From a virus: a stretch of DNA of 34,918 nucleotides. Numbering within the stretch: the first letter of the stretch is position 1; each line of letters starts with the position of its first letter. Shown piece by piece: positions 4,436-31,682 of this stretch. The translations under genes were made by a program, and so were the position numbers. The DNA is taken from IMG/VR virus record IMGVR_UViG_3300018024_000015, positions 1 through 34,918 of that record; one strand, 5' to 3'. The notes below the pieces were generated by a model, which was given only the letters and a program-made list of their open reading frames with translations, ran no database searches and was not told the origin of the DNA.

Positions 4436-5074
4436 CTAAATTTCCATTGTCCCCTTGCCAATATTACATTCCCGACAGGATGTTATCAGGTTCTTTTCCT
4501 CGAATGTTCCTCCATTGTTTCTTGGCTTGATAGGATCAACATTTAAAACAACTGCCGGATCTTTCCGGGGACTTCGGCCGCAATATTGACAGGTAAAGCC
4601 ATCCCGAAGAAGTATCTTAAATCTCAATCTCAGGCCCGCTGTTTGATTTTCAAGGTGCATTAAGCATTTTTCTATATCCTCCATATTATCATCTGGTCTA
4701 TAAGGAACACCGAGCCTCATGAGGGCTAACTTTAGATGGCATAAAGTTGTTGGACCGATCCCTTTATATTTGGTCAACGTATATTTGCGGAAATCGGCAA
4801 GCTCTTCTATATGGAGCAACTGGATTAAATTGCGAATCGCGCCGCGGCAGTCGCCTACCAGATAAAGTAACTTCTGCAAGTCGCCATCCAAATTAGCCAT
4901 TCCTTTCCTTTCCCGCCATTTTTCTTTTTCCACTTCTGGAATAAGATGGTCAAGAGCGTGCTGGATGATTTGCATTGCCCTTGAGAAAGAAATTCCCTTG
5001 ATCTTCCCGATTTCTCGATAAGTTTTTTTATCAACATAGCGTAATTTAATAAACTCCAGATCCCTTTCATTCAT
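4436..5074 (-). CDS. Sigma-region-4-like HTH, HhH/alpha-CTD-like and degenerate HNH protein
   Basis: 212 residues, the only gene on the minus strand. Residues about 5-45 (FIKLRYVDKKTYREIGKIKG) match a sigma70 region-4-type helix-turn-helix. Residues about 85-122 (LTKYKGIGPTTLCHLKLAL) look like the helix-hairpin-helix fold of the RNA polymerase alpha C-terminal domain. Residues about 150-212 form an HNH zinc-finger module with both CxxC pairs (CQYC, CREC) and the late Asn, but the expected DH is DP (NVDPIKPR). I confirmed this on the DNA (GATCCT). Loss of that His predicts weak or no nuclease activity. DNA binding or transcription control is therefore more likely than homing. It has its own promoter, a leader of about 27 nt and an AGGAGG site 9 nt before ATG. 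Confidence 0.75.
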   Translation of the reverse strand: MNERDLEFIKLRYVDKKTYREIGKIKGISFSRAMQIIQHALDHLIPEVEKEKWRERKGMANLDGDLQKLLYLVGDCRGAIRNLIQLLHIEELADFRKYTLTKYKGIGPTTLCHLKLALMRLGVPYRPDDNMEDIEKCLMHLENQTAGLRLRFKILLRDGFTCQYCGRSPRKDPAVVLNVDPIKPRNNGGTFEEKNLITSCRECNIGKGTMEI

Positions 5075-7418: not shown

Positions 7419-7688
7419 TTGGCTACACAGGTCCAGCCACGAATCGGTATCCAGATCAGCCCGGACATACTGGCCATGATCTTTCGGGCCGGGGCGGTCA
7501 TCAAGACAAAAAACGGCTATGAGATCGAGCTGGCGGAAGGCGGGATACCGGACGATTATTTGCTGCAAAAATATGGCATCGACCCGGAAACAAAACAGGG
7601 AATTTTTATTTTCGGCCCCCGGGGATCAACCGGCCCAGTGAAATGGCAGTCCCCGGTTTATCAGAAGACAAAAAAGGAGGAAAGCTGA
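7419..7688 (+). CDS. Small head-region protein of unknown function (89 aa)
   Basis: TTG start at 7419 behind AAGGAGACCCCG; the stop (TGA 7686-7688) overlaps the protease ATG by one base. The protein (MATQVQPRIGIQISPDIL...) is a small mixed alpha/beta chain with no motif I recognise, ending in a Lys/Glu-rich tail. Its place between portal and protease, and the tight coupling, suggest a head assembly or regulatory role. Confidence 0.6.
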   Translation: MATQVQPRIGIQISPDILAMIFRAGAVIKTKNGYEIELAEGGIPDDYLLQKYGIDPETKQGIFIFGPRGSTGPVKWQSPVYQKTKKEES

Positions 7689-9630: not shown

Positions 9631-10905
9631 ATGGATAAAATTGAGCAATTGCTTGCGGCCATTCAGGGCAAGCTAGACGAGACGGTGAATGGGTCGGATG
9701 GTAAGCCCATCACTATCCTGGAAGCCTTCAAGATGTTTCCCGAACTCCAGGAAAACTTCGCTGACCTGAAGAAGCGGTTGGAAGCCATGGAAACCATGGC
9801 TAAAGAGCGCAAATGGGCCAACATCCCCGGCGTGGAACACGGCACGGGAAAAAACCAGTTCTCCCTCTGCCGGGCCATGTTTGCCATCCAAACCAACGAT
9901 TGGAAGGACGCTGGCTATGAAAAGGAGGTTTTCCAGGCAACCAGCCTGAAGGCCATGGGGTACAGCGCTGACACCCTGGGCGGCTATCTGGTCCCGGCCC
10001 AGGCCATCCCGGAGCTCATCGAGTTCCTGCGTGCCGTGCCGATCTGCATGAAACTCGGGGCCACGGTCATCCCCGACCTGATGGGCTCCCCGGTTCTTAT
10101 GCCGAAACAGACCGCGGGGGCCACGATCGCCTGGGTGGGTGAAAACATTACCGTCACCCCCAGCGACCTGGCCTTCGGGCAGGTGCAACTCACCCCCAAG
10201 AAAGCCATGGCCCTGGCCCAGGTTTCCAACAGCCTGATCCGCATGGCTCTCCCGGCGGCGGAGGGCGTAATCACCAACGATCTGGGGCTCCAATTAGCCC
10301 TGGCGGTGGACATCGCCGCCCTGCGCGGCCCCGGCGCCGCCAATCAGCCCCTGGGTATCGCCAACAGCCCGAATATTGGCACCTATGCATTGGGGGGCGT
10401 CAATGACGGGGTTCTGCTCCAAAACCTCGATTTTAAGGATGACATGGAGTATGTTCTGGCGGCCGCCAATGCCCTGCGCGGCAAACTGGGCTTCGCCTTT
10501 AACCCGATTGTCCGGCGGAACCTCAAGAAGATCAAGGTGCCGCAGTTCACCGGCGACGCCGGCGTACAGCCCCTGGTGGAATGGTTTGCAGCCCTAGCCA
10601 TCGGCGGGGCCGGTTTCATGAGCGATGCAGCTCTGGAGGCGGCTCTGGGGTATCCCTTCGAGGTCACCACGCAGATCCCCACCAACCTGGTATCGGGCAG
10701 TTACAGCAACTGCACCGAGATTTATTTCGGTAACTGGGCGGAGTTGCTCATAGGTATTTGGGCCGGCCTGCGGATCATGGTTTCGGATGTGGCCGGCACC
10801 GCCTTCGCCAGCGACCAGACCTGGCTGCGCATCATCATGGAGGTGGATACGGCGCTGCGGCACGACCAGTCTTTCTGCTACTGCAGCAATGTGAGGGCCT
10901 CCTAA
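9631..10905 (+). CDS. HK97-family major capsid protein
   Basis: 424 residues, directly after the protease. The N-terminal ~105 residues are charged and helical with coiled-coil character (LEAMETMAKERKW), matching the delta/scaffold domain removed by the protease. The rest shows the HK97 fold pattern: TLGGYLVPAQAIPELIE, TIAWVGENITVTPSDLAFGQ, a RGPGAANQPLGI segment and a C-terminal DTALRHDQSFCY strand. It polymerises into the icosahedral shell. RBS is GAGGAACCC before ATG 9631. A GC hairpin follows the gene. The exact delta-domain cleavage site cannot be read from sequence alone. Confidence 0.92.
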   Translation: MDKIEQLLAAIQGKLDETVNGSDGKPITILEAFKMFPELQENFADLKKRLEAMETMAKERKWANIPGVEHGTGKNQFSLCRAMFAIQTNDWKDAGYEKEVFQATSLKAMGYSADTLGGYLVPAQAIPELIEFLRAVPICMKLGATVIPDLMGSPVLMPKQTAGATIAWVGENITVTPSDLAFGQVQLTPKKAMALAQVSNSLIRMALPAAEGVITNDLGLQLALAVDIAALRGPGAANQPLGIANSPNIGTYALGGVNDGVLLQNLDFKDDMEYVLAAANALRGKLGFAFNPIVRRNLKKIKVPQFTGDAGVQPLVEWFAALAIGGAGFMSDAALEAALGYPFEVTTQIPTNLVSGSYSNCTEIYFGNWAELLIGIWAGLRIMVSDVAGTAFASDQTWLRIIMEVDTALRHDQSFCYCSNVRAS

Positions 10906-10966: not shown

Positions 10967-11389
10967 ATGCAGCAAAATTTTAGCACCTATAACTATTTGG
11001 AGCATGTTTTCGATGCGCAGTCCGTGCCCGGATCCCCCACAACCTTGACTTCAAACCCTATCGATTGCAAGGGGAGGGAAATCGGGGCTGTGTGCCTGAA
11101 TGTGGGCGCCATGGTGGCCGGCGGCACCATCGACGGTCATATAGAGGAAAGCGCGGACGGCGTCACCTCCTGGAGTCCTGTCGCCCTGGCCGTCTTCCCC
11201 CAGATTCTTGCGGCTAGTGGCGCCAGCAAAACCTATGTGGGCGGGCTGCTCCTGCGGAACCGCCTGCGCTTTCTCCGGGTGGTCTTGACCGTGACGACCT
11301 CCGCGGCTCTACTCAGTGCCGACTTTTTCAAGTCCTACGGGAAAGAGCGGCCGGCTACGCCCACCGAGACCGTGGCGTTCGAGGTCTAA
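10967..11389 (+). CDS. Predicted beta-rich virion protein (possible capsid decoration)
   Basis: 140 residues, RBS AAAGGAGGG, immediately after the capsid gene. The sequence is beta-rich with the pattern GHIEESADGVTSW and LLLRNRLRFLRVVLTVTTSAA, seen in small phage proteins of the type that present a jelly-roll or Ig-like sandwich. Position next to the capsid gene suggests a decoration or head-stabilising protein. That is inferred from context; no named family is certain. Confidence 0.6.
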   Translation: MQQNFSTYNYLEHVFDAQSVPGSPTTLTSNPIDCKGREIGAVCLNVGAMVAGGTIDGHIEESADGVTSWSPVALAVFPQILAASGASKTYVGGLLLRNRLRFLRVVLTVTTSAALLSADFFKSYGKERPATPTETVAFEV

Positions 11390-11400
11390 GGCCGGTTCTT

Positions 11401-11631
11401 ATGGCACTCTATCGGGTTCGGTTCGATCACACACTTCACCTCGGCCCCGGGCAGACCCTGGGGCCGGGGGATGTTTTCGAGCCTACCCCCGAGGTCCTGG
11501 CCAGCCAGGGCCATAAATTGGAATTGGCGGGGGAATGCGACCCTGTAACCGTCAAGACAGGCATGGGATTTACCGAAGATGTCAAGGGGGGCTATCTGGT
11601 GCCGCCTCAGCGGTTCGGAAGGAAGAGGTGA
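11401..11631 (+). CDS. Small beta-domain protein, paralogous to the N-terminus of the next protein
   Basis: 76 residues from ATG 11401. Residues 1-45 (YRVRFDHTLHLGPG...PGDVFEPTPEVL...KLELAGE) align with residues 1-44 of the following glycosyltransferase (YRVRVGFVVHEGP...PGQIFQPTLATL...KLELVEK). The rest contains EDVKGGYLVPPQRF, similar to the capsid element GGYLVPAQ. It looks like a stand-alone copy of a small strand-turn-strand module common near phage capsid genes. Function unknown; the RBS is weak. Confidence 0.55.
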   Translation: MALYRVRFDHTLHLGPGQTLGPGDVFEPTPEVLASQGHKLELAGECDPVTVKTGMGFTEDVKGGYLVPPQRFGRKR

Positions 11632-11633
11632 CC

Positions 11634-13835
11634 ATGGCCTACCGGGTTCGCGTTGGGTTTGTAGTCCATGAAGGCCCCAGGGTTTATTACCCGGGGCAGA
11701 TCTTCCAGCCTACTCTTGCGACTCTGGAAAACCAGAGCTGGAAGCTGGAGCTAGTGGAGAAGGCGCCTATGCGGCCTGATTTCAGAGACGGGGCCTGGCG
11801 GGGTCGTCGCTGTTTCATCCTGGGCGGCGGCCCCAGCCTGGCCGACTTCGATTTTGACCGGCTCCGGGGGGAACTGGTGATCGGTATCAACCGGGCTTTT
11901 GAGAAGTTCGACCCGGAGATAATCTTTTCAATCGACAGCCGCCTCTACACCTGGCTGCAAAAAGGAATGCTGGGGCCGGGCCCAACCCAGAAATTCAAAG
12001 ACTCCACGGCGCTCAAGGTTTGGCCGGAGGAAATAGGGTTCGTCTTCGGTCGGGAGGTCCAGACGGTCCCCAGGATCATCGGGCGTGGCCTCGGCAAATC
12101 CATCCGGGAAGGGATTTTTACCGGCTCCAATTCCGGGTTCGCCGCCCTTAACCTGGCCATCTGCCTGGAGGCCAACCCGATTTATCTATTGGGGTTCGAC
12201 CTCCATACAGTGGGCCAGTGGCAGAAATGGTTCCATGAGGGCTACCCGTCAAAGCAGAGGGATCATATTTATAACGACTTCCGGGCTGATTTTGAAGCGA
12301 TGGCCCTAGCCATCAAGGCCAAAGGGGTGCGGGTGGTCAACCTTAATCGCGGGTCTTCCCTGAAATGCTTTGACTTCGGGGAGGCGCCGCTTCCTTTATC
12401 TTGTGTAAAGCAAGAGACGGAATCCTTTACACAACCGGATTTGTTGTTAAAAGACTTTACACAAACTCCGGACAAGGTGACGGTGATCACCCCGACCGGC
12501 GACCGCCCCGAGGCCCTGGCCTTGCTCCGGCGCTGGATCGGCAACCAGACCAGGCAACCGGACCAATGGCTCATCATCGACGACGGTAAGACCCCGATAA
12601 TCCCGGCAGACTTCCCCAGCGCCATGGTTATCCGGCGTGAGCCCCAGGCAGACGATCCCCCTTGCACCCTGGGTAAAAATTTAGAAGCCGCCCTGCCTCA
12701 TATCGCCCATGAGAAGATCCTGGTTATGGAGGACGATGATTGGTATAGCCGGGACTACATTAAGACCATGGCGGCCCTCCTGGACAGCCACGCGCTGGTA
12801 GGAATCTGGGGCACAAAATGCTACCATCCCGGCCTGCCCGGGTTTCGAGAAATGGGTCGCAATGATCATGCTTCCTTTTCTCAAACCGGCTTTCGCCGGT
12901 CGATGATCCCAGCCCTGATCAAATCCATCCCCGGCGATTGCTCCGTGGACCTGCGACTCTGGTGGGAGCATGGCAAGGGAAAGGGTTATCTGATCCCCGG
13001 GGCCAACAAGAAGCTCCACGTCGCCATGAAAGGGATGCCTGGCCGCGGCGGGGCGGGTTGCGCCCATGACCCCAAGCTCCATACGCTTGATCCGAATTTC
13101 AGCAAACTTAGAGAGTGGTGCGGTGATCCTAAGACCTACCAAAAATTTGCCCCTAAAAACCTGATCGTTATCTACACCGCCATAGCCGGCGCCGGCCGGG
13201 ATCACCTGGTGGACCCGGTCCCGGCCCCCGGGGTCGATTACGTCTGTTTCACCGACCAGCCCTTTGAAAGCAAGGTCTGGGAGATCCGGCCCTTTACCTG
13301 GACACACCCTACCGAGGCGGTCCGGACCGCCAAGCACCCCAAGGTCCTTCCCCATGAATACTTCCCGGACCACGAAATCAGCATCTGGGTTGATGGCAAT
13401 ATCATCCCAGGCCCTGAAGCTGCGGAGATCGCCAAGCAGTATCTCGGCAATGGCCATGCCCTGGCCATGCACCGGCACCCCCGGCGCTCCTGCATCTATA
13501 AGGAAGCCGCGATAGTCTTCGGGGAAGACAAGGACCATGCCGACCTGATCCATAAAACCACCGGGCGCCTCAAGAAAATAGGAGTCCCGGCCAACGCCGG
13601 CCTTTATGAGTGCGGGATACTATTCAGAAAACATAATGACCCCAAGGTTATTAAAGCCATGCAGTTGTGGTGGAATGAATTAAATATCGGGACCCAATCG
13701 GATCAGATTGCCTTTGCCGGTATCTTATGGAAAACCGGACTCCCGGCCACGGTTATAGATACGAACCTCAGACAAAACCCTCATTTCCAGTTTGAGCCCC
13801 ATGCAGAGATTTATTGGGGGAAGCTATGCAAGTAA
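11634..13835 (+). CDS. Multidomain glycosyltransferase: DUF115-like + GT2 + DUF616/TOD1-like
   Basis: ATG 11634 follows GAAGAGGTGACC; the frame extends upstream to 11535 without a better start. In 733 residues: 1-44 small beta module; about 60-255 a DUF115/MptE-like or sialyltransferase-like Rossmann domain (FILGGGPSLADFDFD, GINRAF, TGSNSGFAALNLA, IYLLGFDL); about 280-480 a family 2 GT-A domain (VTVITPTGDRPEAL, IIDDG, VMEDDDWYSRDY); about 508-733 a DUF616/TOD1-like GT-A domain (IVIYTAIAGAG, WVDGNIIPG, LAMHRHPRRSCIYKEA). Such enzymes transfer sugars from nucleotide donors using an acidic metal-binding motif, here EDDD and DGN. It is cytoplasmic (no signal peptide). Targets may be virion or exported proteins downstream; this is inference. 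Confidence 0.8.
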   Translation: MAYRVRVGFVVHEGPRVYYPGQIFQPTLATLENQSWKLELVEKAPMRPDFRDGAWRGRRCFILGGGPSLADFDFDRLRGELVIGINRAFEKFDPEIIFSIDSRLYTWLQKGMLGPGPTQKFKDSTALKVWPEEIGFVFGREVQTVPRIIGRGLGKSIREGIFTGSNSGFAALNLAICLEANPIYLLGFDLHTVGQWQKWFHEGYPSKQRDHIYNDFRADFEAMALAIKAKGVRVVNLNRGSSLKCFDFGEAPLPLSCVKQETESFTQPDLLLKDFTQTPDKVTVITPTGDRPEALALLRRWIGNQTRQPDQWLIIDDGKTPIIPADFPSAMVIRREPQADDPPCTLGKNLEAALPHIAHEKILVMEDDDWYSRDYIKTMAALLDSHALVGIWGTKCYHPGLPGFREMGRNDHASFSQTGFRRSMIPALIKSIPGDCSVDLRLWWEHGKGKGYLIPGANKKLHVAMKGMPGRGGAGCAHDPKLHTLDPNFSKLREWCGDPKTYQKFAPKNLIVIYTAIAGAGRDHLVDPVPAPGVDYVCFTDQPFESKVWEIRPFTWTHPTEAVRTAKHPKVLPHEYFPDHEISIWVDGNIIPGPEAAEIAKQYLGNGHALAMHRHPRRSCIYKEAAIVFGEDKDHADLIHKTTGRLKKIGVPANAGLYECGILFRKHNDPKVIKAMQLWWNELNIGTQSDQIAFAGILWKTGLPATVIDTNLRQNPHFQFEPHAEIYWGKLCK

Positions 13836-15709
13836 CTTATTTAATCCTTACCTGGAACCGAAAAGATGCCCTTAAAAGGCACCTGGATCTGTTATTGGAG
13901 CAGACCTACCCGGAGCCTTTTGAGGTCATTGTATGTGTTGATGGTTCTACGGATGGAACCCAGGTAATGCTTTCCCGGCTCAAGGAGATCCCTAAATATT
14001 CTCTAAAATGGTTCGATACCGTCAACACCGACAAGAACACCGCGGCGCAGGCCAGGAACATGGGGATTAAAAATGCCTCCGGCGAAATTCTTATCATGGT
14101 GGACGATGATTGCCTGCCCCATAAGCAGCTCATCGAGTCGTATTTGAAGGAGTTTAACCCCCAGGAAGTCCAGGTGGGCTACAAATCGGACCTCGAATCC
14201 TACCTGGGCATGTCCCTCCCGGTTCCCATTGAACCAGGGCTCATGACTACCTGGATGAAGGGGAAAATAAACGGTGATTTCAATTATTTCCAAACAGGGA
14301 ATGTCTGCATGTCGATCATCGCCGCCCGGACTCCGGCCAAGGATGGCAGCATCGGGTTTGACGAGCGGTTTGTTGGTTACGGCCATGAGGATACCGAATT
14401 GGGCCGGCGCCTGGCCTCTGCTGTTCGTAATTTTCGTTTCAACCCTGATGCTGTGACCTGGCACATGCACCCGGGATCGGCGCCCCAGCAGGACCCGGAA
14501 TTGAAGAAGACCCAGGCGGTTCAAAGCAATGCCAGGTTACAGCAAATTTTAGAGGAGCCGTTCCCTTACCCGATAACCATGAGGGAGCCAAGTATTAAGG
14601 TCGGCCTCTTCACCTCCAGACCGGCCCAAGGATATTTTTATACCTTGCTTAATCAATTAGGAAAGGCTGGGGTTCCCTTTGAAGTTGGCGAGATGCAGGG
14701 GGAGTCCTTTTGGGCGGCTCGGGGCAAATGGCATCGAGAATTCCTATCCCGGAATACCGGGAAGGTTTGTATCCTCGATGCTTGGGATACAACTTTTTGG
14801 GGAACCAAGGAGGAATTAGAACGTAAAATTAACGCCCCGATTATTTTCTCTGCGGAACGTAATTGTTGGCCTCCTCCCAGCAGGCCTGAAGATTACCCGA
14901 AATGTAAAACCCCCTGGAGATTCGTCAATGGTGGTGGATTCGGCGGCGATGCGAAGGAGTTATTGCGGCTCCTGTCCTTCGATCAGACATCGCCCGCGGG
15001 AGATCAATACAATTACGTGAAATCTTATTTGTCTGGAATCGGAGTATTAGATAGCCGGTGCCGAATTTGGCACAATCTTTATGCCGGAGAACACGGGGAA
15101 CTTGTGGCCTATAATGGCCGATGGAAAAATACCATTACTGGGGAAATACCCTGTTTTATCCATGGCAATGGTGGGAGTTGGAAATATTGGCCTGATATTT
15201 TTCCAGAAACCCCTGTCCGAATTGCCGAGAAAATTGAGGGCTGGATGAGTCATATCGAACTCTCATGGCTTTCTGAAATCGCGCAGAAAATGCGGATAAT
15301 TTTTGAGATTGGCAGTTACCGTGGCCGGAGCACTTATGCTCTGTGCTCAGCCTGCCCGGGCAAAGTTTATGCCGTTGATCAATTCCAATTCGGGGACCCT
15401 GAAATTTACGAATCCTTTCTTAAAAATATGGCCAATTTTCAAAACTTGACCGTTCTCAAGATGAAAAGCCTAGAAGCGGCAGTTAATGGGAAAATGCCCG
15501 CGATGGCGGACATGATTTTTCTTGATGCGGACCACGATTACGAACCTTTTAAAGCAGACATCAAAGCATGGCTCCCCAGGGCCAGGAAGATAATTTGCGG
15601 CCATGATTACGGGCCGGCTCACCCTGGGGTCATGCAGGCGGTAAAGGAGGTTTTCGGTGATAGCTTCGGGGTGTGCGAGACGATCTGGTATGTCGAACTC
15701 AGCCGCTGA
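13826..15709 (+). CDS. Multidomain enzyme: GT2 + PLOD-like glycosyltransferase + SAM methyltransferase
   Basis: ATG 13826, behind TGGGGGAAGCT, overlaps the previous stop by 10 nt; a TTG at 13814 is possible but less likely. In 627 residues: 1-230 a family 2 transferase (LILTWNRKDALKRHLDLLL, VCVDGSTDGT, VDDDC, then GYGHEDTELGRR typical of the GT2/GT27 C-terminal helix); about 258-460 a domain resembling the glycosyltransferase part of procollagen lysyl hydroxylases (ILDAWDTTFWG, FSAERNCWPPP, RFVNGGGFGG, GDQYNYV); about 488-627 a class I methyltransferase (FEIGSYRGRSTYAL, AVDQF, MIFLDADHDYE, GHDYGPAHPGV). Together with its neighbour it could build and methylate a glycan on a protein acceptor. 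Confidence 0.8.
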   Translation: MQVTYLILTWNRKDALKRHLDLLLEQTYPEPFEVIVCVDGSTDGTQVMLSRLKEIPKYSLKWFDTVNTDKNTAAQARNMGIKNASGEILIMVDDDCLPHKQLIESYLKEFNPQEVQVGYKSDLESYLGMSLPVPIEPGLMTTWMKGKINGDFNYFQTGNVCMSIIAARTPAKDGSIGFDERFVGYGHEDTELGRRLASAVRNFRFNPDAVTWHMHPGSAPQQDPELKKTQAVQSNARLQQILEEPFPYPITMREPSIKVGLFTSRPAQGYFYTLLNQLGKAGVPFEVGEMQGESFWAARGKWHREFLSRNTGKVCILDAWDTTFWGTKEELERKINAPIIFSAERNCWPPPSRPEDYPKCKTPWRFVNGGGFGGDAKELLRLLSFDQTSPAGDQYNYVKSYLSGIGVLDSRCRIWHNLYAGEHGELVAYNGRWKNTITGEIPCFIHGNGGSWKYWPDIFPETPVRIAEKIEGWMSHIELSWLSEIAQKMRIIFEIGSYRGRSTYALCSACPGKVYAVDQFQFGDPEIYESFLKNMANFQNLTVLKMKSLEAAVNGKMPAMADMIFLDADHDYEPFKADIKAWLPRARKIICGHDYGPAHPGVMQAVKEVFGDSFGVCETIWYVELSR

Positions 15710-15857
15710 TCAGCCGGAAGGGAAGCTCAAGAAGACCTGGCGGCAATACCGGGACCGGGATGAGGCGGTCCAGAATCTCACTCAGGACCGGGGTAGGGCG
15801 GTTGAGGGAGCCCCGCATGACCGGATGATCCGGAAAGAAGGAGCGGTGACGAAATGA
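15690..15857 (+). CDS. Small charged ORF coupled to exported LamG-like gene (55 aa)
   Basis: From ATG 15690, inside the end of the methyltransferase frame, to TGA 15855-15857, overlapping the next ATG by four bases. The product (MSNSAADQPEGKLKKTWRQY...) is highly charged with no hydrophobic segment. The start has no clear ribosome site, so translation would depend on coupling. Function unknown. Confidence 0.35.
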   Translation: MSNSAADQPEGKLKKTWRQYRDRDEAVQNLTQDRGRAVEGAPHDRMIRKEGAVTK

Positions 15858-16720
15858 TCAGGAAACTCAAATTCGCTATCATCCTTTTTGCCCTGGCTTT
15901 CCTCTGCCTGGCTTCAACAGGCTGGGCCGATAATAGCGGATTAGGGTTATCGACAAGCCTATCATTAGTGGAACAGGGTGGGGCCATCTCCAATCCCCTC
16001 TGGCCCTTCCCCGACATTCCCCTCCCGCCCTTCCTCTGGCGCCCCGACCTCACAGGGGATTACCGCAATGTGGGGAGCGATGGGGCGGCTTTGGATCTAT
16101 CACCGGCTCCTGACAACCCTTATCATCCTCAAGGTTATGCACCACCACTTGGCTCTTTCAGTAATGGGTGGGTAATCAGTAATCCTTCCCAAGATTCTAA
16201 TCCTCCAGGTGAAAGTAGTGTCGTTATCGTACCATATAATCCCGATGTTTCCTATTTGGGATCACTTTTCTCAATGGTGTTTAAAGTTAAATTTGGTGCG
16301 GGAGGTAACTCATGTGTGCTAGGATTTTCTGGCAGTAGCCTAGCAGATATTTGGAGAGTGTACTATAACAATTATGATTTTCCGCTTGAAGCTGATTTTA
16401 TAAGTGGTGATAATGTTTTAGATAAACAAGGAATTATATTATTAGAAGCCGAGGTAGAATATATAATTGTAGTCACATTTAATAGTGGAGTTTTTCATTT
16501 TTATATAAACGGCGTCGAAGATACTATTATTGAGGGCGGTGCATCAGAAGGAACCTTGACTTCAATGCCTGATACAGGAGACGGGGTTTGTATAGGAGAT
16601 GATAGTTTTTATCCAAATGAATCATCACCCGATGGCACAATTTTTAAGGCGGTAGCCGTCCACAAAGGCATCGCCTACACCCCGGCGCAGGCGGCGGAGA
16701 TTACTGCGGGGTTGCAATAG
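15854..16720 (+). CDS. Exported LamG/concanavalin-like protein
   Basis: 288 residues; RBS AAGGAGCGG before ATG 15854. Residues 1-25 form a clear Sec signal peptide (K-rich start, IILFALAFLCLA core, GWA cleavage end). The remainder resembles a LamG/concanavalin-A-like jelly roll: VFHFYINGVEDTI and the closing strand-helix FKAVAVHKGIAYTPAQAAEI. These folds usually bind glycans or act as spacer modules in appendages. The middle (about 16,200-16,630) is far more AT-rich than both ends of the gene, a sign of module exchange. It opens a series of exported proteins downstream of two glycosyltransferases. It probably acts in the periplasm or on the host surface, or on virions. Confidence 0.7.
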   Translation: MIRKLKFAIILFALAFLCLASTGWADNSGLGLSTSLSLVEQGGAISNPLWPFPDIPLPPFLWRPDLTGDYRNVGSDGAALDLSPAPDNPYHPQGYAPPLGSFSNGWVISNPSQDSNPPGESSVVIVPYNPDVSYLGSLFSMVFKVKFGAGGNSCVLGFSGSSLADIWRVYYNNYDFPLEADFISGDNVLDKQGIILLEAEVEYIIVVTFNSGVFHFYINGVEDTIIEGGASEGTLTSMPDTGDGVCIGDDSFYPNESSPDGTIFKAVAVHKGIAYTPAQAAEITAGLQ

Positions 16721-16751
16721 GTTTAACCAATTAACTAATAAGGAGAAGTTT

Positions 16752-17162
16752 ATGAAGAAAATCCTCTGCATATCAATCTTCTCGCTATTTCTCATCGCAG
16801 CTTTAGCCTCATCTTCCCTGGCAGCCAATAGCACTTCGATATCATCTGACGGCAGCAAGGTCAGCATAATCCTGGACGGCTCTACCGATTGGAACGGAGC
16901 CACGGACGGCCAGATGCCCCGGGGCCGGGGACTCATTGCGATCAAGTTTTTCCCCAGCGCAGCCAATGATGTCTTAGTGGTGCGGGATGGATCAGCGACA
17001 GGGCCGGAAATATTCCATGGCAAAGATGTCCCGGGTGGCGGTCTTGCTGACGGAACTTTTGGCGGCCTGGTTAGTTACCCCTATATCAAGGCCAGCGATC
17101 TCACCTTGGGGACCGCGGCTAATGCCCGGGTGATTATGCTTTTTTCCCCTATCCCCCGGTAA
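16752..17162 (+). CDS. Exported small protein of unknown function (136 aa)
   Basis: RBS AAGGAGAAG before ATG 16752. Residues 1-24 are a signal peptide (MKKILCISIFSLFLIAALAS, SLA|AN). The mature part is beta-rich (SISSDGSKVSIILDGSTDWN, LIAIKFFPSAANDVLVVRDG, ANARVIMLFSPIPR). The mature domain resembles small phage virion-like beta proteins (the DVLVVRDG...GPEIFHGKD stretch), here with a signal peptide in front. I do not recognise a family. Confidence 0.6.
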   Translation: MKKILCISIFSLFLIAALASSSLAANSTSISSDGSKVSIILDGSTDWNGATDGQMPRGRGLIAIKFFPSAANDVLVVRDGSATGPEIFHGKDVPGGGLADGTFGGLVSYPYIKASDLTLGTAANARVIMLFSPIPR

Positions 17163-17187
17163 AAGGCTGGAAGAATTAAAGGAAAAT

Positions 17188-17511
17188 ATGATGAGCATCT
17201 TATCCTGGATCGGGAATCAACTGGGTAAGGTTTTCAATCCGAAAAAGGTAATCCTGGGTAAAGGCACCTATCCAGTGCGCCTCCCAAATGGAGAAATAGG
17301 CACCGTCACGGTTATCCCGGTCAAGGCCTCCCAACTACCCCAACCGAAGCCGGGGAGCAACCTGGAGCCCCAGGTTTCAGACCGAATGGAGGAAGCCCCC
17401 GGGCAATGGGCAATCGTTTTCAATGAAGATCTGCCCCCGGAAAAGGCTTCCGAGGCTATTAGCTGGGAAATGGACCAGATCACCGCGGGAACGACATGGG
17501 ATAAAAACTAA
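17188..17511 (+). CDS. Unknown protein (107 aa)
   Basis: RBS AAAGGAAAAT before ATG 17188 (ATG 17191 also possible). The N-terminus is mildly amphipathic (ILSWIGNQLGKVFNPKK), then a small beta segment (YPVRLPNGEIGTVTVIPV) and a Pro-rich linker before a helical acidic tail. No signal peptide. It lies within the exported cluster; function unknown. Confidence 0.55.
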   Translation: MMSILSWIGNQLGKVFNPKKVILGKGTYPVRLPNGEIGTVTVIPVKASQLPQPKPGSNLEPQVSDRMEEAPGQWAIVFNEDLPPEKASEAISWEMDQITAGTTWDKN

Positions 17512-17536
17512 CCCGGAAAGAAGGAGCCATTACCAA

Positions 17537-17749
17537 ATGACCAGAAAAATCTTTCATGGCCTGATTTACTTAGGTAAGGCTTACCTGATGCTAGTGGGCC
17601 TTCTGGTCACCTTGATGGTGGGCCGCCAGCTTTACCTTGACCACTATGGCAGTAATATCCCGATGGTCCGGGCGCAGCTCAATCTTGTGCTCCCCCCTTT
17701 GACCTTTACCAATAAGCCTAAACAAACTCAGCAAGGAGGACGGCAATGA
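17537..17749 (+). CDS. Single-pass membrane protein (70 aa)
   Basis: ATG 17537 follows AGAAGGAGCCATTACC; longer in-frame starts lie within the previous gene. A hydrophobic segment at about residues 14-30 (YLMLVGLLVTLMVGRQLYL) follows a basic N-terminus, and the rest is a short exterior tail. The stop overlaps the next ATG (ATGA). Function unknown; may anchor or assist the exported cluster. Confidence 0.5.
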   Translation: MTRKIFHGLIYLGKAYLMLVGLLVTLMVGRQLYLDHYGSNIPMVRAQLNLVLPPLTFTNKPKQTQQGGRQ

Positions 17750-18204
17750 ACAGAAAATGGCAGATTTGCTTATTGGCAGTAGCCCTAGCCCTGGCCCTGG
17801 TAGTTTCCAGCTACGCCACCAGCTTCACCATGTCCACCACCCAGCGCCACGCCTGCGGGGCCACCATCGCCACTAACATCAGCTCGGGCCATCTCCGCAT
17901 CTATTCGGGGACTGATCCGGGCGTCCTCAACGCCGTCACCGGGACCCTCCTGGTGGACTGGACGCTCAATGCCACCAACACGGATACCGGCGGGGTCACG
18001 ACCTTGGGGGCGGTGACCAACGTGAACGCCTCCGGCACCAATACTGCGGCCTATTTCCGGATCACCGAGTCGGATGGGACGACCGCCCTGTTTGATGGAG
18101 ATTGCAGCGCTACCTCTGGCAGCTTGACACTTAACACGCTCAGCATCGTCTCAGGCGGCCCCTGCTCCCTGAGCGGCACGATCACGGTGCCCATAGGTAG
18201 CTGA
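17746..18204 (+). CDS. Exported phage-type beta protein (152 aa)
   Basis: RBS AAGGAGGACGGC before ATG 17746. Residues 1-24 are a signal peptide (MNRKWQICLLAVALALALVV, SYA). The mature domain (HLRIYSGTDPG, GTLLVDWTLNA, NTAAYFRITESDGTTALFDG) matches a beta-sandwich pattern common in tailed-phage structural regions, where it normally has no signal peptide. Two Cys flank the C-terminal strands and could form a disulfide in the periplasm. It overlaps the upstream gene by 4 nt. Confidence 0.65.
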   Translation: MNRKWQICLLAVALALALVVSSYATSFTMSTTQRHACGATIATNISSGHLRIYSGTDPGVLNAVTGTLLVDWTLNATNTDTGGVTTLGAVTNVNASGTNTAAYFRITESDGTTALFDGDCSATSGSLTLNTLSIVSGGPCSLSGTITVPIGS

Positions 18205-18205
18205 T

Positions 18206-18310
18206 ATGGATAGTATAAGACACGTTTTAGGTTTGTTCCTCGGGGGCATGGCTGCCGGAATATTCTTTTGTAGCTATGTCTTGAAACACGGGCAGAGGAA
18301 GGCTAAATGA
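18206..18310 (+). CDS. Tiny membrane ORF coupled to the repeat protein (34 aa)
   Basis: ATG 18206 with ATAGGTAG just upstream; ends in TGA 18308-18310, overlapping the next ATG by four bases. The 34 residues contain one hydrophobic stretch (VLGLFLGGMAAGIFFCSYVL) and a basic C-terminus. Coupling and codon pattern favour it being real; no function is known. Confidence 0.45.
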   Translation: MDSIRHVLGLFLGGMAAGIFFCSYVLKHGQRKAK

Positions 18311-20304
18311 GCCGTCTCCTCAAGATACTCGCCGTGCTGGTCCTGGGGCTGGCCCTGGTGGTCACTGGTCTGCCCCAGGCCCGGGCGGCAATCACCTGGC
18401 CTAGCACAGCAACTGCGCCTACTCATTGGTGGCCTTTCGACCAGAGTCAGGGCTTATCTGACTATGGGTCAATAGGCGGCCTGACTCTCTCGCAAGGGGG
18501 GGTAGGATCTCCTTTAAGTTGGCTACCTAATGGTATTCATCTTCCTACCAATACCTATGCCGGGTGTGCTTCAAACACAGACTTATGTGATCTTGGAGCC
18601 ACTTTTTCTATATTGTTTGAGTGGGTTTGCATTAATGATTGGAGTATTCTTGGTTGTGCGGCACCTGATGTCCACACAACCGGATGGTATGCAGGCGAAC
18701 TTGGAGCCGGTGAAAATCTATATCTGAAAACGTATAATCCTTCCGGCACACTAAATAGTGTCGGTGTTGGTAGTGGGCTTAACAATGGTGTTATGAATCA
18801 AGCGATTCTGGTTCATTCAGGGGGGAAATCTACTCTATATATAAACGGAGGCGTAGCCTTAGCAGCAACATCACAGGCCGATCCTCTTGCTATCATTGGT
18901 CTATTTACAATAAATGGTGCCGGAGATGTTTATGGATCAAGAACCATTACCGTTAGACAAGTTGCCATTCTTAAAGGGACGGCCTGGAGTCAGAGTGATG
19001 TATCGAATATTTGGGTTGCCTTTAATGGCTACCCGGCCACCCTTTCGGGCAGCCTTACCCAGGTATCGACATCCCTGTCCGGAAGCTCCATCGTGTCTAC
19101 CCTGTCCGGGGCCTTGGCCCAGATCACAGGGGCATTCACGGGGAACCATGGCATTGGCGCAACCATTTCCGGAACCTTGACCCTATTTTCGGCATCCCTA
19201 TCTGGAAGCTCTGTGACATCCACCCTATCTGGTGCCTTAACTCAAGTGTCCGCCTCATTATCAAGTGCCGTGGTTGATTTCACCGGCGCACTTTCAGGGT
19301 CCCTGGTCCAAGTTTCATCCGCCCTGAGCGGGTCGTCGCTGGTATCTACCCTGTCCGGGGCGTTAGCGCAGGTGACGGGGGCGTTCATCGGGGAGCATGG
19401 GGTGTTAGCCACGGTAGGGGGAATGTTGACGCAGGTATTCGCCACCCTGACTGGTGATCATGGGGTGGCAGGAGCCATATCGGGGACCTTGGCCCAAGTG
19501 TCAGCGTCCTTGAACAGTTCTTCTCTGGTGGCTGCCCTCTCAAGTGTGCTATCGCAGGCCACTGCCTCACTGTCCGGTTCTGTGGTCAATTTTGTGGGCA
19601 GCTTGGGGGCCGGCATAACCCAGGTCTCAGCCTCCCTTTCAGGGAGCGAGCTGGTGGCAACCCTGGCCGGGGCACTATCTCAGGTAACGGCTGCCATCTC
19701 AGGGACCATAAGCCAGATACAGGCGATAACGGCGGCCCTCACTGGCACCATGACCCAGGTATCGGCGGCCTTCAACAGCTCATCACTGATCGGCTCACTC
19801 TCCGGCAGGCTATCCCAGGTCACCGCCTCACTTTCGGTCAGTATTATCGACTATACCGTTTCCCTAACCGGGACCTTGAGCCAGGCCACCGCCTCGCTGA
19901 CGGGGGCGCATGGCATCGGCGGGACCCTTGCCGGAGTGGTTTCAAAGATCTCCTCTGCTTTAAATGGGTCATCGCTGGCAACTACCTTGAACGGGATACT
20001 CAGCCAGGTTGATGCCTCATTATCCGGGGCGCACGGAATCGGGGGAACCTTATCGGCATGGACAAATCAGGCAACCGCCATTCTCTCCTGCGGTCATGGG
20101 GTGGCGGCTGCCTTAAATGGAACCGTGGATCAAATCACTTCGGCATTATCAGTCGGTATTTTCCGGCGACTGCTCACTTATCTTTATGTGCTGCTCATTG
20201 AACCAGAAAACCGCCAGCTCACGGTCCCGATGGAAAACCGGGTGCTACCCCTGGCATTTGAAAACCGGACCCTAATAGTGCCATCCGCAAAGGGAAGCCA
20301 ATGA
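18307..20304 (+). CDS. Exported LamG-like protein with 18 tandem ~21-residue repeats
   Basis: 665 residues. 1-28 is a signal peptide (LKILAVLVLGLALVVTGL, ARA). About 30-238 is LamG/concanavalin-like (THWWPFDQS, STLYINGGVALA, VRQVAILKGTAWSQSDV). About 240-617 consists of some 18 repeats with consensus TLSGxLxQVxASLSGxHGIGG, rich in Ser, Thr, Gly and Ala and with regular hydrophobic spacing, suggesting a rod-like beta or coiled fibre. The C-terminus carries two copies of an ENR(x)L-x-V-P motif (PENRQLTVPMENRVLPLAFENRT region) that I associate with small phage structural proteins. The repeats offer many Ser/Thr acceptors for the glycosyltransferases encoded upstream. The likely role is an exported fibre or surface coat protein. 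Confidence 0.75.
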   Translation: MSRLLKILAVLVLGLALVVTGLPQARAAITWPSTATAPTHWWPFDQSQGLSDYGSIGGLTLSQGGVGSPLSWLPNGIHLPTNTYAGCASNTDLCDLGATFSILFEWVCINDWSILGCAAPDVHTTGWYAGELGAGENLYLKTYNPSGTLNSVGVGSGLNNGVMNQAILVHSGGKSTLYINGGVALAATSQADPLAIIGLFTINGAGDVYGSRTITVRQVAILKGTAWSQSDVSNIWVAFNGYPATLSGSLTQVSTSLSGSSIVSTLSGALAQITGAFTGNHGIGATISGTLTLFSASLSGSSVTSTLSGALTQVSASLSSAVVDFTGALSGSLVQVSSALSGSSLVSTLSGALAQVTGAFIGEHGVLATVGGMLTQVFATLTGDHGVAGAISGTLAQVSASLNSSSLVAALSSVLSQATASLSGSVVNFVGSLGAGITQVSASLSGSELVATLAGALSQVTAAISGTISQIQAITAALTGTMTQVSAAFNSSSLIGSLSGRLSQVTASLSVSIIDYTVSLTGTLSQATASLTGAHGIGGTLAGVVSKISSALNGSSLATTLNGILSQVDASLSGAHGIGGTLSAWTNQATAILSCGHGVAAALNGTVDQITSALSVGIFRRLLTYLYVLLIEPENRQLTVPMENRVLPLAFENRTLIVPSAKGSQ

Positions 20305-20627
20305 AACGGTCAAGGCAGTCAATATTTCTGGTCCTGGCGGCAATATTCATCATGACGGCGGTAGCCAACACCGTTCAGGGTGCAACCGGCTTCACTTATT
20401 CCGATGGCTGGTATGCCCCCAGCAAGGACGCCGCCGCGGTTCTGGATTATTCAATCGACTGGAGCCAATGGCTGGCCGGTGATACCATCGCCGCCAGCTC
20501 CTGGACCTGCGACCAGGGGATAACCGGGGTTCCGGTCAGCGGCCCGGACACGACTAAAACTTCCATCTGGCTTTCCGGAGGTACGATGGGGCAGACCTAT
20601 AAGATCTCCAATAGCATAATACAGTAG
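20301..20627 (+). CDS. Exported small phage-domain protein (108 aa)
   Basis: ATG 20301 overlaps the previous stop (ATGA). 1-27 is a signal peptide (basic MKRSRQ, IFLVLAAIFIMTAVA, VQG). The mature domain (VLDYSIDWSQWLAGDTI, SIWLSGGTMGQTYKIS) is a pattern typical of small beta-sandwich proteins near phage head-tail connectors, normally cytoplasmic. It is the last of the signal-peptide run before the connector gene. Function unknown. Confidence 0.65.
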   Translation: MKRSRQSIFLVLAAIFIMTAVANTVQGATGFTYSDGWYAPSKDAAAVLDYSIDWSQWLAGDTIAASSWTCDQGITGVPVSGPDTTKTSIWLSGGTMGQTYKISNSIIQ

Positions 20628-20671
20628 GCGGCCGCATCGATGTAATAAATTTTAAGATCAAGGTGAGGTAA

Positions 20672-21304
20672 ATGGACCTTACTACCCTTGCAAGCGTGAA
20701 AGCATCTCCCTGGCTGGCCGATATGGTCTTAGGGGATTGGCAGGACACCTGGGACACTATGATCGGCTACCTGATCACGGCCCGGTCCCGGGATGCCGAG
20801 CGCTACTGCAACCGTGAATTCGAGAAGAAGCAGGTAATCGAATATCACGACGGCGGCGGGAAGTTCCTGTTTCTCAAGCGCACCCCCATCAATTCCCTGG
20901 TGGATATCAAATGGTCCCTTTTTTACGATTGGACCGAGAATTACCTGGAGATCGATGCTCAAACCCCCATGGTCGGCTTCAATGCTACCATCGGGTCAGT
21001 AATCCTCATCGGCGGGATCGACTGGTATACCGGGATCAAAACCATCCAGGTGACCTACATCGGCGGATACGATCTCCTGACCACGGCTCCCAGTGCCCCG
21101 CCCATCCCGCCTTATATGCCTCTACCGGAAGACCTGGAGGCAGCTATCGCCCAGCAGGTCGCCTATGATTTCAGGCGGCGGAAGGACCTGGGGCTTATCT
21201 CAGTAACGATGATTGATGGGAGCATCCAGAAGAAGAGTACTGACAAATGGCTGCCGGATGTCGAGCTGGTTCTTAAAAAATACCGGCATCGCTTCTTTGG
21301 GTAA
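20672..21304 (+). CDS. Head-tail connector (gp6-like adaptor)
   Basis: 210 residues; RBS AAGGTGAGGTA before ATG 20672. The N-terminal helices (LITARSRDAERYCNREFE), the loop motif FLKRTPINSLVDI and the beta region (IQVTYIGGYD...PLPEDLEAAIAQQVAYDFRRR) are typical of HK97 gp6/SPP1 gp15-type connector proteins, which stack under the portal and gate the DNA exit. The gene resumes the canonical morphogenesis order after the accessory insertion. Confidence 0.8.
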   Translation: MDLTTLASVKASPWLADMVLGDWQDTWDTMIGYLITARSRDAERYCNREFEKKQVIEYHDGGGKFLFLKRTPINSLVDIKWSLFYDWTENYLEIDAQTPMVGFNATIGSVILIGGIDWYTGIKTIQVTYIGGYDLLTTAPSAPPIPPYMPLPEDLEAAIAQQVAYDFRRRKDLGLISVTMIDGSIQKKSTDKWLPDVELVLKKYRHRFFG

Positions 21305-21317
21305 GGAGGCAAAGGTC

Positions 21318-21845
21318 ATGCAAAAATACGAAAGGATCGTCGCCTTCCCGGGGCTCGTAAATGTCGGGATAGTCTCATTTTACCCAGACCATGAGGCCCT
21401 ATGTGCCGATTCCCGTTCTCTGAGTATGACCATGGGCGCCAATATCCTGCGGGCCGCAGCACCTCAATCTTATGAGATGCTGGCGAAGATGGGGATCAAG
21501 ACCACTCTAAATCTGCAGATGGCCAGCGAAAAGCAGAAGGATGATACGGTAGGCATAAAAGAAATCTGGGTGCCTTTGTCGGTCTATCAATCCATTCCCC
21601 CCGCGAAATTTAACAGCATCATAAAAGTCACTCAGGACCCGGCCAATTATCCTCTCCTCATTCATTGTTTGGCTGGCCATGACCGGACCGGGGTAGTCTG
21701 CGCGGCCCGGCGCATGGCGGTGGACGGCTGGGCCTGGTTCGAGGCCATCGAGGAGATGGATCATTTTGGCTACAACATTCTGACCGTCCCCCTGATGCTC
21801 TCGCTCAAGGATTGGGCCAAGGACAAGGGGATCACGGTAACCTGA
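21318..21845 (+). CDS. Tyrosine/dual-specificity phosphatase-like protein
   Basis: ATG 21318 follows TAAGGAGGCAAAGGTC; an upstream in-frame ATG at 21213 overlaps the connector. In 175 residues, the P-loop HCLAGHDRTG (about 116-125) matches HCxxGxxR(T/S) of protein tyrosine phosphatases, whose Cys attacks phosphate and whose Arg binds it. The preceding part (LAKMGIKTTLNLQM, WVPLSVYQSIPP) fits an atypical dual-specificity fold. A candidate general acid is not obvious. Substrates could be phosphoproteins, phosphoinositide-like or sugar phosphates; none can be chosen. It is unusual within connector genes and may be a cargo gene acting on the host. Confidence 0.8.
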   Translation: MQKYERIVAFPGLVNVGIVSFYPDHEALCADSRSLSMTMGANILRAAAPQSYEMLAKMGIKTTLNLQMASEKQKDDTVGIKEIWVPLSVYQSIPPAKFNSIIKVTQDPANYPLLIHCLAGHDRTGVVCAARRMAVDGWAWFEAIEEMDHFGYNILTVPLMLSLKDWAKDKGITVT

Positions 21846-29029: not shown

Positions 29030-29503
29030 ATGAATAACTTAGCTGATTTCGAATCAGCCCAGCGCCAGGCGGTCATCAGCGAAGCTGAATCCTGGATCGG
29101 CACGCCCTTTCATCACCAGGGGCGGGTCAAGGGGCGCCGGGGCGGTGTCGATTGCGCCATGCTGCTTCTGGAAGTCTTCCGGGGGGCCGGGGTCATCACG
29201 GATGATCGGACCATCCCCTACTATTCCCAGCAATGGCACCTGCACCGCTCCGATGAGAAGTATCTGGAGATGATCCTGGCCTTTGGCGCCCGGGAGATCA
29301 CCACGCCCCAGCCAGGTGACCTTGCGATCTGGAAGGTTGGCCGGGCCTTTTCCCACGGAGCCATCGTGGTCCTTTGGCCCGAGATCATCCATGCCGTCGT
29401 GGATCCGATAAATGCCTGCGTCCGGGACAATGCCCTGAGATCAACCCTGAACCTTACCAAATACCCGGTGAAGTTCTTTACTCCCTGGAGGAAAGCTGAA
29501 TGA
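29030..29503 (+). CDS. NlpC/P60 tail peptidase (GTA gp14-like)
   Basis: 157 residues. Catalytic Cys in GGVDCAMLLLEVF (about residue 43), His in FSHGAIVVLWPE (about 110) and a further His in IIHAVVDP (about 122) fit the NlpC/P60 Cys-His-His/polar triad. The N-terminal AESWIGTPFHHQGRVKG is typical. As in GTAs and lambda gpK it should cut peptidoglycan cross-bridge peptides locally during DNA entry. ATG 29030 has GGTAATGAA upstream. The stop overlaps the next gene (ATGA). Confidence 0.88.
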   Translation: MNNLADFESAQRQAVISEAESWIGTPFHHQGRVKGRRGGVDCAMLLLEVFRGAGVITDDRTIPYYSQQWHLHRSDEKYLEMILAFGAREITTPQPGDLAIWKVGRAFSHGAIVVLWPEIIHAVVDPINACVRDNALRSTLNLTKYPVKFFTPWRKAE

Positions 29504-30147
29504 AAACCCTGCGATTGATCGTCCTCTTGCTTCTGGTCCTGGCGCTCCCTGCCCAGGCCGGCCAGTGGACCGGCAATGGCTACTTCTATAAGCCCAGCAT
29601 GGGGGCCTCGGGACCTACGGAATGGGCCAAGTTCAATCAGGGCCTTGATCAGGCCGACGCCAAGCTGGCCTCCATCCAGTCCCAGATCACGCCGACGGCA
29701 CCCCTCACCTATGACCCCACTTCCGGGGTGCTGGCAATCACAGGTGAAACCTTTCCTGTGAGCGGTCTGATTGCTGGCACTACCGATATACAAACTTTTA
29801 CCAATAAACGGATCACCAAGCGGGTGCAAACCTTTACCGCCGATTCGACCTCGATCACGCCAAATGGAGATTCCTACGATGCTGGCCGTCTTCTTATGCC
29901 TGCGGCTACCGCTGGCACCCTGACAGTCAATAATCCCTCGGGAACCCCCACCGATTTCCAGAAATATGAATTAGCCCTCACAACTACAAATGCTCAGACC
30001 ATTTCATGGGGGAATGCCTATGTGGCCGGGGCCACACCCCTTCCTGCAGTTACGGTGGCAGGTCAAGAGGTGCGCTGCGGATTTGATTATGATTTCGTAA
30101 AAAGCACATGGAAACTTGTAGCTGTCGCTGGAGGGTTTGCACAATGA
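29500..30147 (+). CDS. Exported tail-appendage-like protein (215 aa)
   Basis: ATG 29500 overlaps the peptidase stop. Residues 1-20 are a signal peptide (LRLIVLLLLVLALPAQA). The mature chain contains TYDPTSGVLAITGE and a C-terminal module (TFTADSTSITPNGDSYD, GTLTVNNPSGTPTDFQKYEL, GFDYDFVKSTWKLVAVAGG) common at the ends of phage tail fibres or appendages. The combination with a Sec signal is odd for a virion component. RBS GGAGGAAAG. Confidence 0.7.
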   Translation: MKTLRLIVLLLLVLALPAQAGQWTGNGYFYKPSMGASGPTEWAKFNQGLDQADAKLASIQSQITPTAPLTYDPTSGVLAITGETFPVSGLIAGTTDIQTFTNKRITKRVQTFTADSTSITPNGDSYDAGRLLMPAATAGTLTVNNPSGTPTDFQKYELALTTTNAQTISWGNAYVAGATPLPAVTVAGQEVRCGFDYDFVKSTWKLVAVAGGFAQ

Positions 30148-31682
30148 GAAAGTTCAAACTCTCCCTCATCTGGTTTGTCCTTGCCTTCGCGTGCCTGACA
30201 GGTCTGGTCTATCCAGTATTTGCAGCAAATAACTTTGGCAGCGATCCATCCTGCAAGGCCCTCTGGCGTTTCGAGTCAGCGGCCTTGGATGTGGATTCTA
30301 TTGGCACAAATACCCTCACGCTGGTTGGTGCCCCTATTGCCGATGCTGTTAATTTTGAGGAAGGGGCAGCCTCGATCCTTCTCGATGGTGCTACCCAATA
30401 CGCCTATATCCCAGACGCCAGCCTATCCGCAGGATTTCCGCTAAATAGCGGTGACACCGCTAAACTTGCCACTTTTACCTTCCGGTTCCGGCCGGAATCG
30501 CCAACAGCAAGTGACCGGGTTGTTATTGGTAAATGGGAAAATAATAATTTTAGTTTTGTGTTTGATGTAACCGGCCTATCTCTTTCAATTGGATGGGCCA
30601 CCAGTAATACTGCTGCTGATTGGAATTGGGGAAGTATATTTACATTTACATTAAATCATTGGTATAGGATTGCTGTAATTATTGATGGGGCAACCAATAA
30701 AACCTGCACAATTATAATTTATGATGTAACAGCAGGTACCTATACTTATTTAACCCATACCTATTCAAGTGCTTTAAATGTCAGCACTGCCGCCTTTGCT
30801 ATCGGGGCAACTGCCGACCCTGGTGCTTATTTTAGTGGCAATATTGATGAGGTTGTGGCCTTTAACCGGAAGCTGAATCTCGTTGAAATCGAAAGCATCT
30901 TCAATCAGATTTATACCGGCCCTTATGCCCCAGCATCCCCTGGCAATGTTTTCACAGGCGACAACCGCTTCCAAGCCAGATGGAGGTTTGAGGCTGGGGC
31001 TTTGACGACTGATTCAAGCCCTGCTGCTGGCGGTAATGGAACCAATACTCTTACTTTACAAGGTTCGCCAAATCCTGTGCTCGACTCCTTTGGGATTATG
31101 GAAGGATCAGACGCTGCATATTTGGCCGCCGATCATTCTTATTTTAAAATATCTGATAGCAATCTTTCTGCTGGTTTTCCATGGATAAGTTCTGGTGCCA
31201 ACAAGAAAGGAACGGTGTGTGGTTGGGTTATTGTTTCAGCACGAGGGGCCAGTTTTGATTCGGGTTTATGGGCGAAGAAAGTTACTGATAATTTTACTGG
31301 GGGTATTTCTGCCTATATTGCCCGTACAGCCCCAAATCATCTATTCGTAGTTTCTGATACAACAGTATATGATACTGGAATCGCCTTTCTACTTTTCGGT
31401 ATATATCATGTTGCTTTTGTTATAGATAACACTAATAATACTCTCCATGTGAGAGTTTATAGTGTAGCGAGCGGTATTGCGACTAATTACGATACGAGTA
31501 TAGTGGCCTTTGGATTAGGGAGCGGCAGTTTTTGGTTAGGATCGGATAACTCCAACTCCTGTATTGGCAGCTGGCTCGATGAGTTCGTAGTGGCTAATGC
31601 GCTGCTTTCTGATGCTGAGATAGATGCTATTCGGGAGCAGGCTTTCCCGCTGGGTGCAGGAAATTATTTTTTCATCTTTTAA
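30144..31682 (+). CDS. Exported protein with two LamG/concanavalin-like domains (512 aa)
   Basis: ATG 30144 overlaps the previous stop; the longer 30108 frame lies in that gene. Residues 1-28 form a signal peptide (FKLSLIWFVLAFACLTGL, VFA). Two similar jelly-roll halves follow: about 35-265 (LWRFESAALDVDS, ILLDGATQYAYIPD, GNIDEVVAFNRKLNLVEIES) and about 285-505 (ARWRFEAGALTTDSS, LAADHSYFKISD, SWLDEFVVANALLSDAEIDA). The repeat of LWRFE...DS, DxSLSAGFP and the DE-V final strand shows internal duplication. Glycan binding is plausible. Codons in 30,520-30,780 and 31,120-31,600 are AT-rich compared with flanks. Confidence 0.75.
   Translation: MRKFKLSLIWFVLAFACLTGLVYPVFAANNFGSDPSCKALWRFESAALDVDSIGTNTLTLVGAPIADAVNFEEGAASILLDGATQYAYIPDASLSAGFPLNSGDTAKLATFTFRFRPESPTASDRVVIGKWENNNFSFVFDVTGLSLSIGWATSNTAADWNWGSIFTFTLNHWYRIAVIIDGATNKTCTIIIYDVTAGTYTYLTHTYSSALNVSTAAFAIGATADPGAYFSGNIDEVVAFNRKLNLVEIESIFNQIYTGPYAPASPGNVFTGDNRFQARWRFEAGALTTDSSPAAGGNGTNTLTLQGSPNPVLDSFGIMEGSDAAYLAADHSYFKISDSNLSAGFPWISSGANKKGTVCGWVIVSARGASFDSGLWAKKVTDNFTGGISAYIARTAPNHLFVVSDTTVYDTGIAFLLFGIYHVAFVIDNTNNTLHVRVYSVASGIATNYDTSIVAFGLGSGSFWLGSDNSNSCIGSWLDEFVVANALLSDAEIDAIREQAFPLGAGNYFFIF

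Follow-up and report, generated by a model that had tools for sequence, protein, structure and literature searches.

The adsorption protein pIII of filamentous phages is a receptor-binding virion protein whose precursor bears a Sec signal. For tailed phages, assembly is taken to occur entirely within the cytoplasm. In vitro, fibres of phage T4 and tailspikes of phage P22 can be joined to particles, and Llp of phage T5 is an exported receptor blocker. The gIII signal peptide is named in PMC9402515. Among tailed phages, the structure of Agrobacterium phage 7-7-1 has the protein gp014 surrounding the tail fibres (PMC12796354), and Gp77 (PF23148) is the fibre-tail adaptor of the Ralstonia podophage GP4 (PDB 8jou). 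Furthermore, capsids and tail tubes of mycobacteriophages carry glycosylation according to Freeman 2023 as cited in PMC12619734. The open-access papers searched contained no precedent for a tail fibre with a Sec signal.

The stretch of DNA analysed here (the window) is a full IMG/VR entry, 34.9 kb of linear phage DNA; its genes are named by their start coordinates (Table 1), and the records and loci compared with it, fragmentary contigs among them, carry L numbers. We propose that adhesins of this phage are exported through Sec and joined to the particles at or after lysis, a reading to which we assign an even chance; the addition of export signals, as judged by comparison with relatives, is well supported. 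The locus is like filamentous phages in that adsorption-type virion proteins have a Sec signal (predicted here). It is unlike them in that pIII is membrane-held and the particles are extruded, whereas here a lytic tailed phage with heads and tails made in the cytoplasm would export fibres that are unanchored: on inspection a C-terminal membrane anchor is absent from the exported fibres, and head, portal and tail genes are present.

Table 1. Features of the window that bear on the exported fibre-class proteins (Sec signals as called by the rule given in the text)
Feature	Coordinates	Strand	Basis and remarks
Portal	5232		Gene order
Prohead protease	7643-9616		
Major capsid protein (MCP), HK97 family	9631..10905	+	PF05065 E 4e-35; left border of slot
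Small head-region protein	10967..11389	+	phrog_5707; slot-conserved in several relatives, matches in L002, L028, L050, L053
Small head-region protein	11401..11631	+	Homologues in L022, L050, L057
Glycosyltransferase 1, separate cassette	11634..13835	+	TOD1/MUCI70 E 7e-12; weaker MptE-like and GT2 matches; sialyltransferase-like PHROG
Glycosyltransferase 2, separate cassette	13826..15709	+	GT2, PLOD-GT and Methyltransf_24
Exported protein (predicted)	15854..16720	+	Sec signal 15854-15928; weak LamG-like domain (E 0.02)
Exported protein (predicted), family unassigned	16752..17162	+	Sec signal 16752-16823
Small single-pass membrane protein	17537..17749	+	Always immediately upstream of 17746
Virion garland-type protein	17746..18204	+	phrog_3758 (7-7-1 gp12/gp14, Milano 127); added Sec signal 17746-17817
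Repeat fibre	18307..20304	+	Repeats of about 20 aa, ENRxLxVP-type repeats at end; Sec signal 18307-18387
Gp77 fibre-tail adaptor family	20301..20669	+	PF23148 E 1e-20; PDB 8jou_D; added Sec signal 20301-20381
Head-tail connector	20672..21304	+	phrog_442 E 5e-14; PF05135 weak; right border of slot
Tail-fibre protein	29500..30147	+	NKRITKRV-type C-terminal domain; Sec signal 29500-29559; directly after NlpC/P60 tail gene
Double LamG-type lectin protein, fibre position	30144..31682	+	PF13385 E 8e-16; Sec signal 30144-30224

Rightward of the connector follow a tyrosine/dual-specificity phosphatase gene (21318-21845), further head-tail completion and tail genes, a tape measure gene, DUF2460 and a hub protein, and then NlpC/P60, the two fibre-position genes 29500 and 30144 and lysis-like genes. 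Since relatives identified by their MCP reside, besides IMG/VR contigs, in metagenome-assembled genomes labelled Deltaproteobacteria and Syntrophales, the hosts are probably Deltaproteobacteria (Syntrophales). Several further genes were noted in passing. Close to the contig's left end lies a gene for a ferritin-like protein (1326-1799; PF00210 E 1e-30), and a gene at 4436-5074, on the minus strand with its neighbours on the other strand, encodes a fusion of Sigma-70 region 4 and an HNH endonuclease. The prohead protease has a highly Cys-rich CxxC insertion at 8780-9330 (42 Cys in the whole protein), which it has in common with L003 only (39 Cys), other relatives having 0-9 Cys.

An interruption of the head gene order by some 9 kb was part of the original prediction and is real: MCP and connector are 9.8 kb apart in the window as against 0.30-0.80 kb (305-803 bp) in nine relatives. 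The gap measures 3.6-8.0 kb in L005, L008, L009 and L028, which have other cassettes at the same place, and the slot between capsid and connector is thus an insertion hotspot. In L028 it holds both glycosyltransferases, with the connector next; in L005 and L009 two long proteins lacking signal peptides come after the transferases, and L008 has different transferase-like genes.

To call signal peptides we used a home-made rule, which asks for a positive n-region, a hydrophobic core and an A-x-A-type site. Calibrated on E. coli proteins, the rule flagged five of six known exported proteins, none of 27 cytosolic ones and two of five multi-pass membrane proteins; its background was 8 of 391 open reading frames in the relatives and, among 54 annotated coding sequences of phages, 2. 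Seven genes of the window have n-, h- and c-regions and an AxA-type site (15854, 16752, 17746, 18307, 20301, 29500 and 30144). The five signals originally predicted between capsid and connector are textbook cases and all called by the rule, but the exported set is not confined to that interval, the last two genes lying outside it. All recognised fibre- or lectin-like genes of the window bear a signal. Across three phages, signals were found in 12 of 16 fibre-class proteins as against none of 31 core virion proteins (Fisher p 3e-8, with the two classes assigned by hand after inspection of the data).

The exported genes would encode adhesive parts of the virion: its fibres, the adaptor between fibre and tail, a protein of the garland type and tips that resemble lectins. 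The protein encoded by 20301 matches the Gp77 adaptor over the domain (74 bits against PF23148 at a curated cut-off of 27), as do Gp77 copies in L036, L037 and L072. Its reading frame is shifted near 20,620, so that the open frame stops at 20627, whereas the C-terminal strand of the family is encoded in a different frame that reaches about 20,669, shortly ahead of the connector; this may be an assembly error or a real mutation, and the copies in L036, L037 and L072 are intact. In Microcystis phage Mae-JY28, too, the Gp77 gene lies directly after a repeat fibre, and this gene pair matches the architecture of 18307, with its ENRxLxVP end and its overlap with the Gp77 gene, without a signal there.

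The protein encoded by 17746 aligns along nearly its whole length with gp014/gp012 of phage 7-7-1 and with Milano 127. It matches the phrog_3758 family, annotated as virion structural, at E 8e-16, and hhalign against the 7-7-1/Milano virion family, which includes the solved tail-fibre chain 9rkv_A, that is the garland protein gp014, gave a probability of 98.5% (E 3e-15, columns 40-151 of 152). A scan of genome contigs with a profile from the 17746 alignment found nothing, matches to 17746 in the phylum search were weak and distant and were not counted as relatives, and an AlphaFold model with a mean pLDDT of 44 was left out of the reasoning. The adjoining 17537 encodes 70 residues with a strongly conserved tail (IPMVRAQLNLVLPP) that match no known family and are 72-76% identical to the copies in L036 and L037.

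The fibre domain of 29500 is that of Mycobacterium phage Tonenili and Methylophilaceae phage P19250A, and a homologue of 922 residues with its own signal follows holin-like and endolysin-like genes in the L140 phage (L145:10622-13390). For 15854 and 16752 a tblastn search against phages yielded no match, and both are without a virion relative of known function; a homologue of 16752 with its own signal is present in the L037 phage (L074:3483-3887, 67%). The lectin-like character originally ascribed to the exported set holds in strength for 30144, outside the interval, and is weak for 15854 within it. Overlaps of the ATGA type are present, as predicted, at 15854, 17746 and 20301. The cysteine content of the exported set, looked at with a need for disulfides in mind, is nothing unusual.

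Cleavable Sec signals appear to have been added ahead of fibre-class proteins that are otherwise complete. Known relatives begin where the mature part begins in the window proteins. Thus, known Gp77 members and the copy in L064 start at the domain and have no signal peptide, in contrast to 20301; L064, the one Gp77 copy found in a search of the phylum, belongs to a prophage of Deltaproteobacteria whose capsid is related. Likewise, 17746 differs from gp014/gp012 of 7-7-1 by an additional Sec signal of 24 residues and by the small membrane protein next to it. The four diverged Gp77 genes (window, L036, L037 and L072) all keep their signals, which are 20-38% identical as compared to 52-67% for the mature domains, and this retention despite divergence points to selection for a signal. 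In the tail region of the L005 record, a close relative, three signal-bearing fibre-type genes occur: a protein starting with SKISALP, one that resembles a beta-helix tailspike in sequence, and a tail fibre with a collar domain that is present without a signal in the L037 phage (71% over 149 residues). The L085 and L117 fibres match the tail-collar (PF07484) and Mtd_N (PF18454) families above the curated cut-offs and, unlike the usual members, have a signal peptide ahead of the usual N-terminus; their cultivated homologues (MED4-184, Qui) begin where these two fibres are predicted to be cleaved. L117 is a separate, prophage-like Desulfobacterota locus in which a Mtd_N/collar fibre with a signal is followed by lysis-like genes.

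The hydrophobic N-termini might also serve purposes other than export, staying in place to anchor the protein in a membrane or the tail, or being cut off by a protease of the phage while particles assemble. Hydrophobic N-termini do occur in phage proteins, the anchoring regions of fibres are N-terminal, and export is predicted here from sequence. Yet n-, h- and c-regions with AxA-type sites are present in seven of seven cases, and the known relatives do without an anchor extension. A family of tail fibres with a conserved SQN start speaks further against anchoring or trimming. In IMG/VR this fibre was found at 13 loci, two of them duplicates that were removed to leave 11. In seven distinct contigs the protein starts with Met directly before SQNxLxVPDGTG (M-SQNxLVVPDG), and in L131, L140, L142 and L143 a signal ends in AxA (SLS in one) directly before SQN, with three kinds of signal peptide among them. 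The predicted cut falls exactly before SQN, at the N-terminus of the signal-less homologues, and signal-peptidase cleavage or Met removal would therefore yield an identical mature N-terminus. Mapping of the signal label on a small tree of the SQN fibres indicated about two switches, with rough support. Cleavage to the normal N-terminus is thus predicted directly in the SQN fibres and by homology for the window proteins, and we consider anchoring or trimming to be quite improbable.

The original prediction had seen in the insert a system of surface glycoproteins made by the adjacent transferases and displayed on infected or lysogenic cells. Its two multidomain glycosyltransferases were confirmed by the domain matches of 11634 and 13826, as was the Ser/Thr richness of exported proteins (25-28% in 17746 and 18307). 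These residues, the PLOD-type glycosyltransferase domain and the adjacency of the two gene sets in the window would all suit such a system. It fails because each gene set occurs without the other: homologues of 17537, 17746, 18307 and 20301 are found together in L036 and in the L037 phage (also L038-L040) with neither transferase present, and the transferases occur without the exported set at the same slot in L028, L005 and L009. PF00535 (GT2) is absent from the L036 and L037 records, while the same search was positive in 14 of 14 control genomes. A separation of this kind had been named beforehand as speaking against a transferase and acceptor system, and it was found in both directions. Moreover, signal-bearing fibres lie far from the insert or without a transferase nearby (29500, 30144, L085 and L140), and the exported proteins belong to the virion fibre class, being homologues of fibre, adaptor and garland proteins rather than surface glycoproteins. 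A glycoprotein system is thus very improbable, and judged by gene content the exported genes are independent of the transferases. What stood of that proposal was the exported, adhesive look of the proteins, and its suggestion of virions decorated on release comes near to the explanation favoured here.

The transferases are present at the same slot in L005, L006, L009 and L028 and form a separate cassette in the same hotspot, which would act on something else. We give even odds to the reading that its targets are the capsid or a different virion protein, or else glycans of the host envelope, in either case independently of the exported proteins. L028 has the transferases alone at the slot, and 11634 opens with a copy (11634-11760) of the head-region domain 11401-11631 (local alignment score 80), which suggests an enzyme held close to the head, as would suit glycosylation of the capsid. 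The mycobacteriophages, as described in the paper cited above, likewise offer glycosylated capsids and tail tubes in a tailed phage with its own glycosyltransferases. Here the exported genes are unlinked to the transferases, and the MptE/sialyltransferase-like domain could equally work on envelope sugars.

For the exported set, the weightiest alternative is that the proteins work at the cell surface, for instance in receptor blocking, in which the fibres would act on the infected cell, bind the cell's own receptors from outside and prevent re-adsorption by progeny or superinfecting phages. Exported adhesins would reach such receptors, and T5 Llp sets a precedent. Since 17537 always lies beside 17746, a role in the cell envelope could be meant, with the membrane protein anchoring exported proteins, and in the L037 phage fibres without a signal could serve the virion. 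On the other hand, a fibre-tail adaptor and a garland protein make sense only as particle parts, and with no signal-less fibre-like gene recognised in the window the virion would be left without a fibre. For these reasons the virion role is favoured, and receptor blocking is regarded as unlikely.

Under the favoured explanation, late joining of exported fibres, the fibre proteins would be made late, alongside the structural genes, and be translocated by Sec. Cleavage at the AxA site would remove the signal, and the mature proteins would then remain beyond the cytoplasm, in which the capsid-tail particles are assembled. When membrane and wall are opened, the fibres would join the particles, and the virions would be completed at or after lysis. 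If this is true, exported fibres would constitute a second, extracytoplasmic assembly step in tailed phages, fibres may be oxidised or shared, with phenotypic mixing among co-released virions, and virion completion may be linked to receptor blocking. As paired fibres exist in both forms, signal-bearing and signal-less, the question lends itself to a direct test. For annotators it is a warning that phage proteins labelled 'secreted' and encoded next to structural genes may belong to the virion and not be morons.

More generally, some tailed phages, probably of Deltaproteobacteria, may finish their particles outside the cytoplasm. Their fibres and adaptors would leave through Sec, undergo maturation in the periplasm or beyond it and be attached to heads and tails only once the cell opens, the signals having been added to several unrelated fibre families and more than once; we place this wider claim slightly below even chances. 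Export would not be obligatory in the L037 phage, because other fibres there are signal-less. Nor do signals on Mtd_N fibres appear to be general in the phylum, since one signal-bearing fibre (L121/L117) was found among the seven matches sampled; three matches from the control phylum were left unscored. The rate of signals among collar matches in Desulfobacterota was dropped as support, phage fibres being mixed there with short chromosomal collar proteins.

Exported tail-collar proteins are apparently also made outside phages, because Desulfobacterota chromosomes encode collar-domain proteins with Sec signals (L088, L091-L094, L107, L108 and L111), some of them in tandem. In the cultivated Rhodococcus phage Madraxi, gp3 (L045:1301-2092), annotated as a minor tail protein, bears a signal and is encoded beside Gp77; it was rejected as a fibre and looks like a secreted trypsin-like protease.
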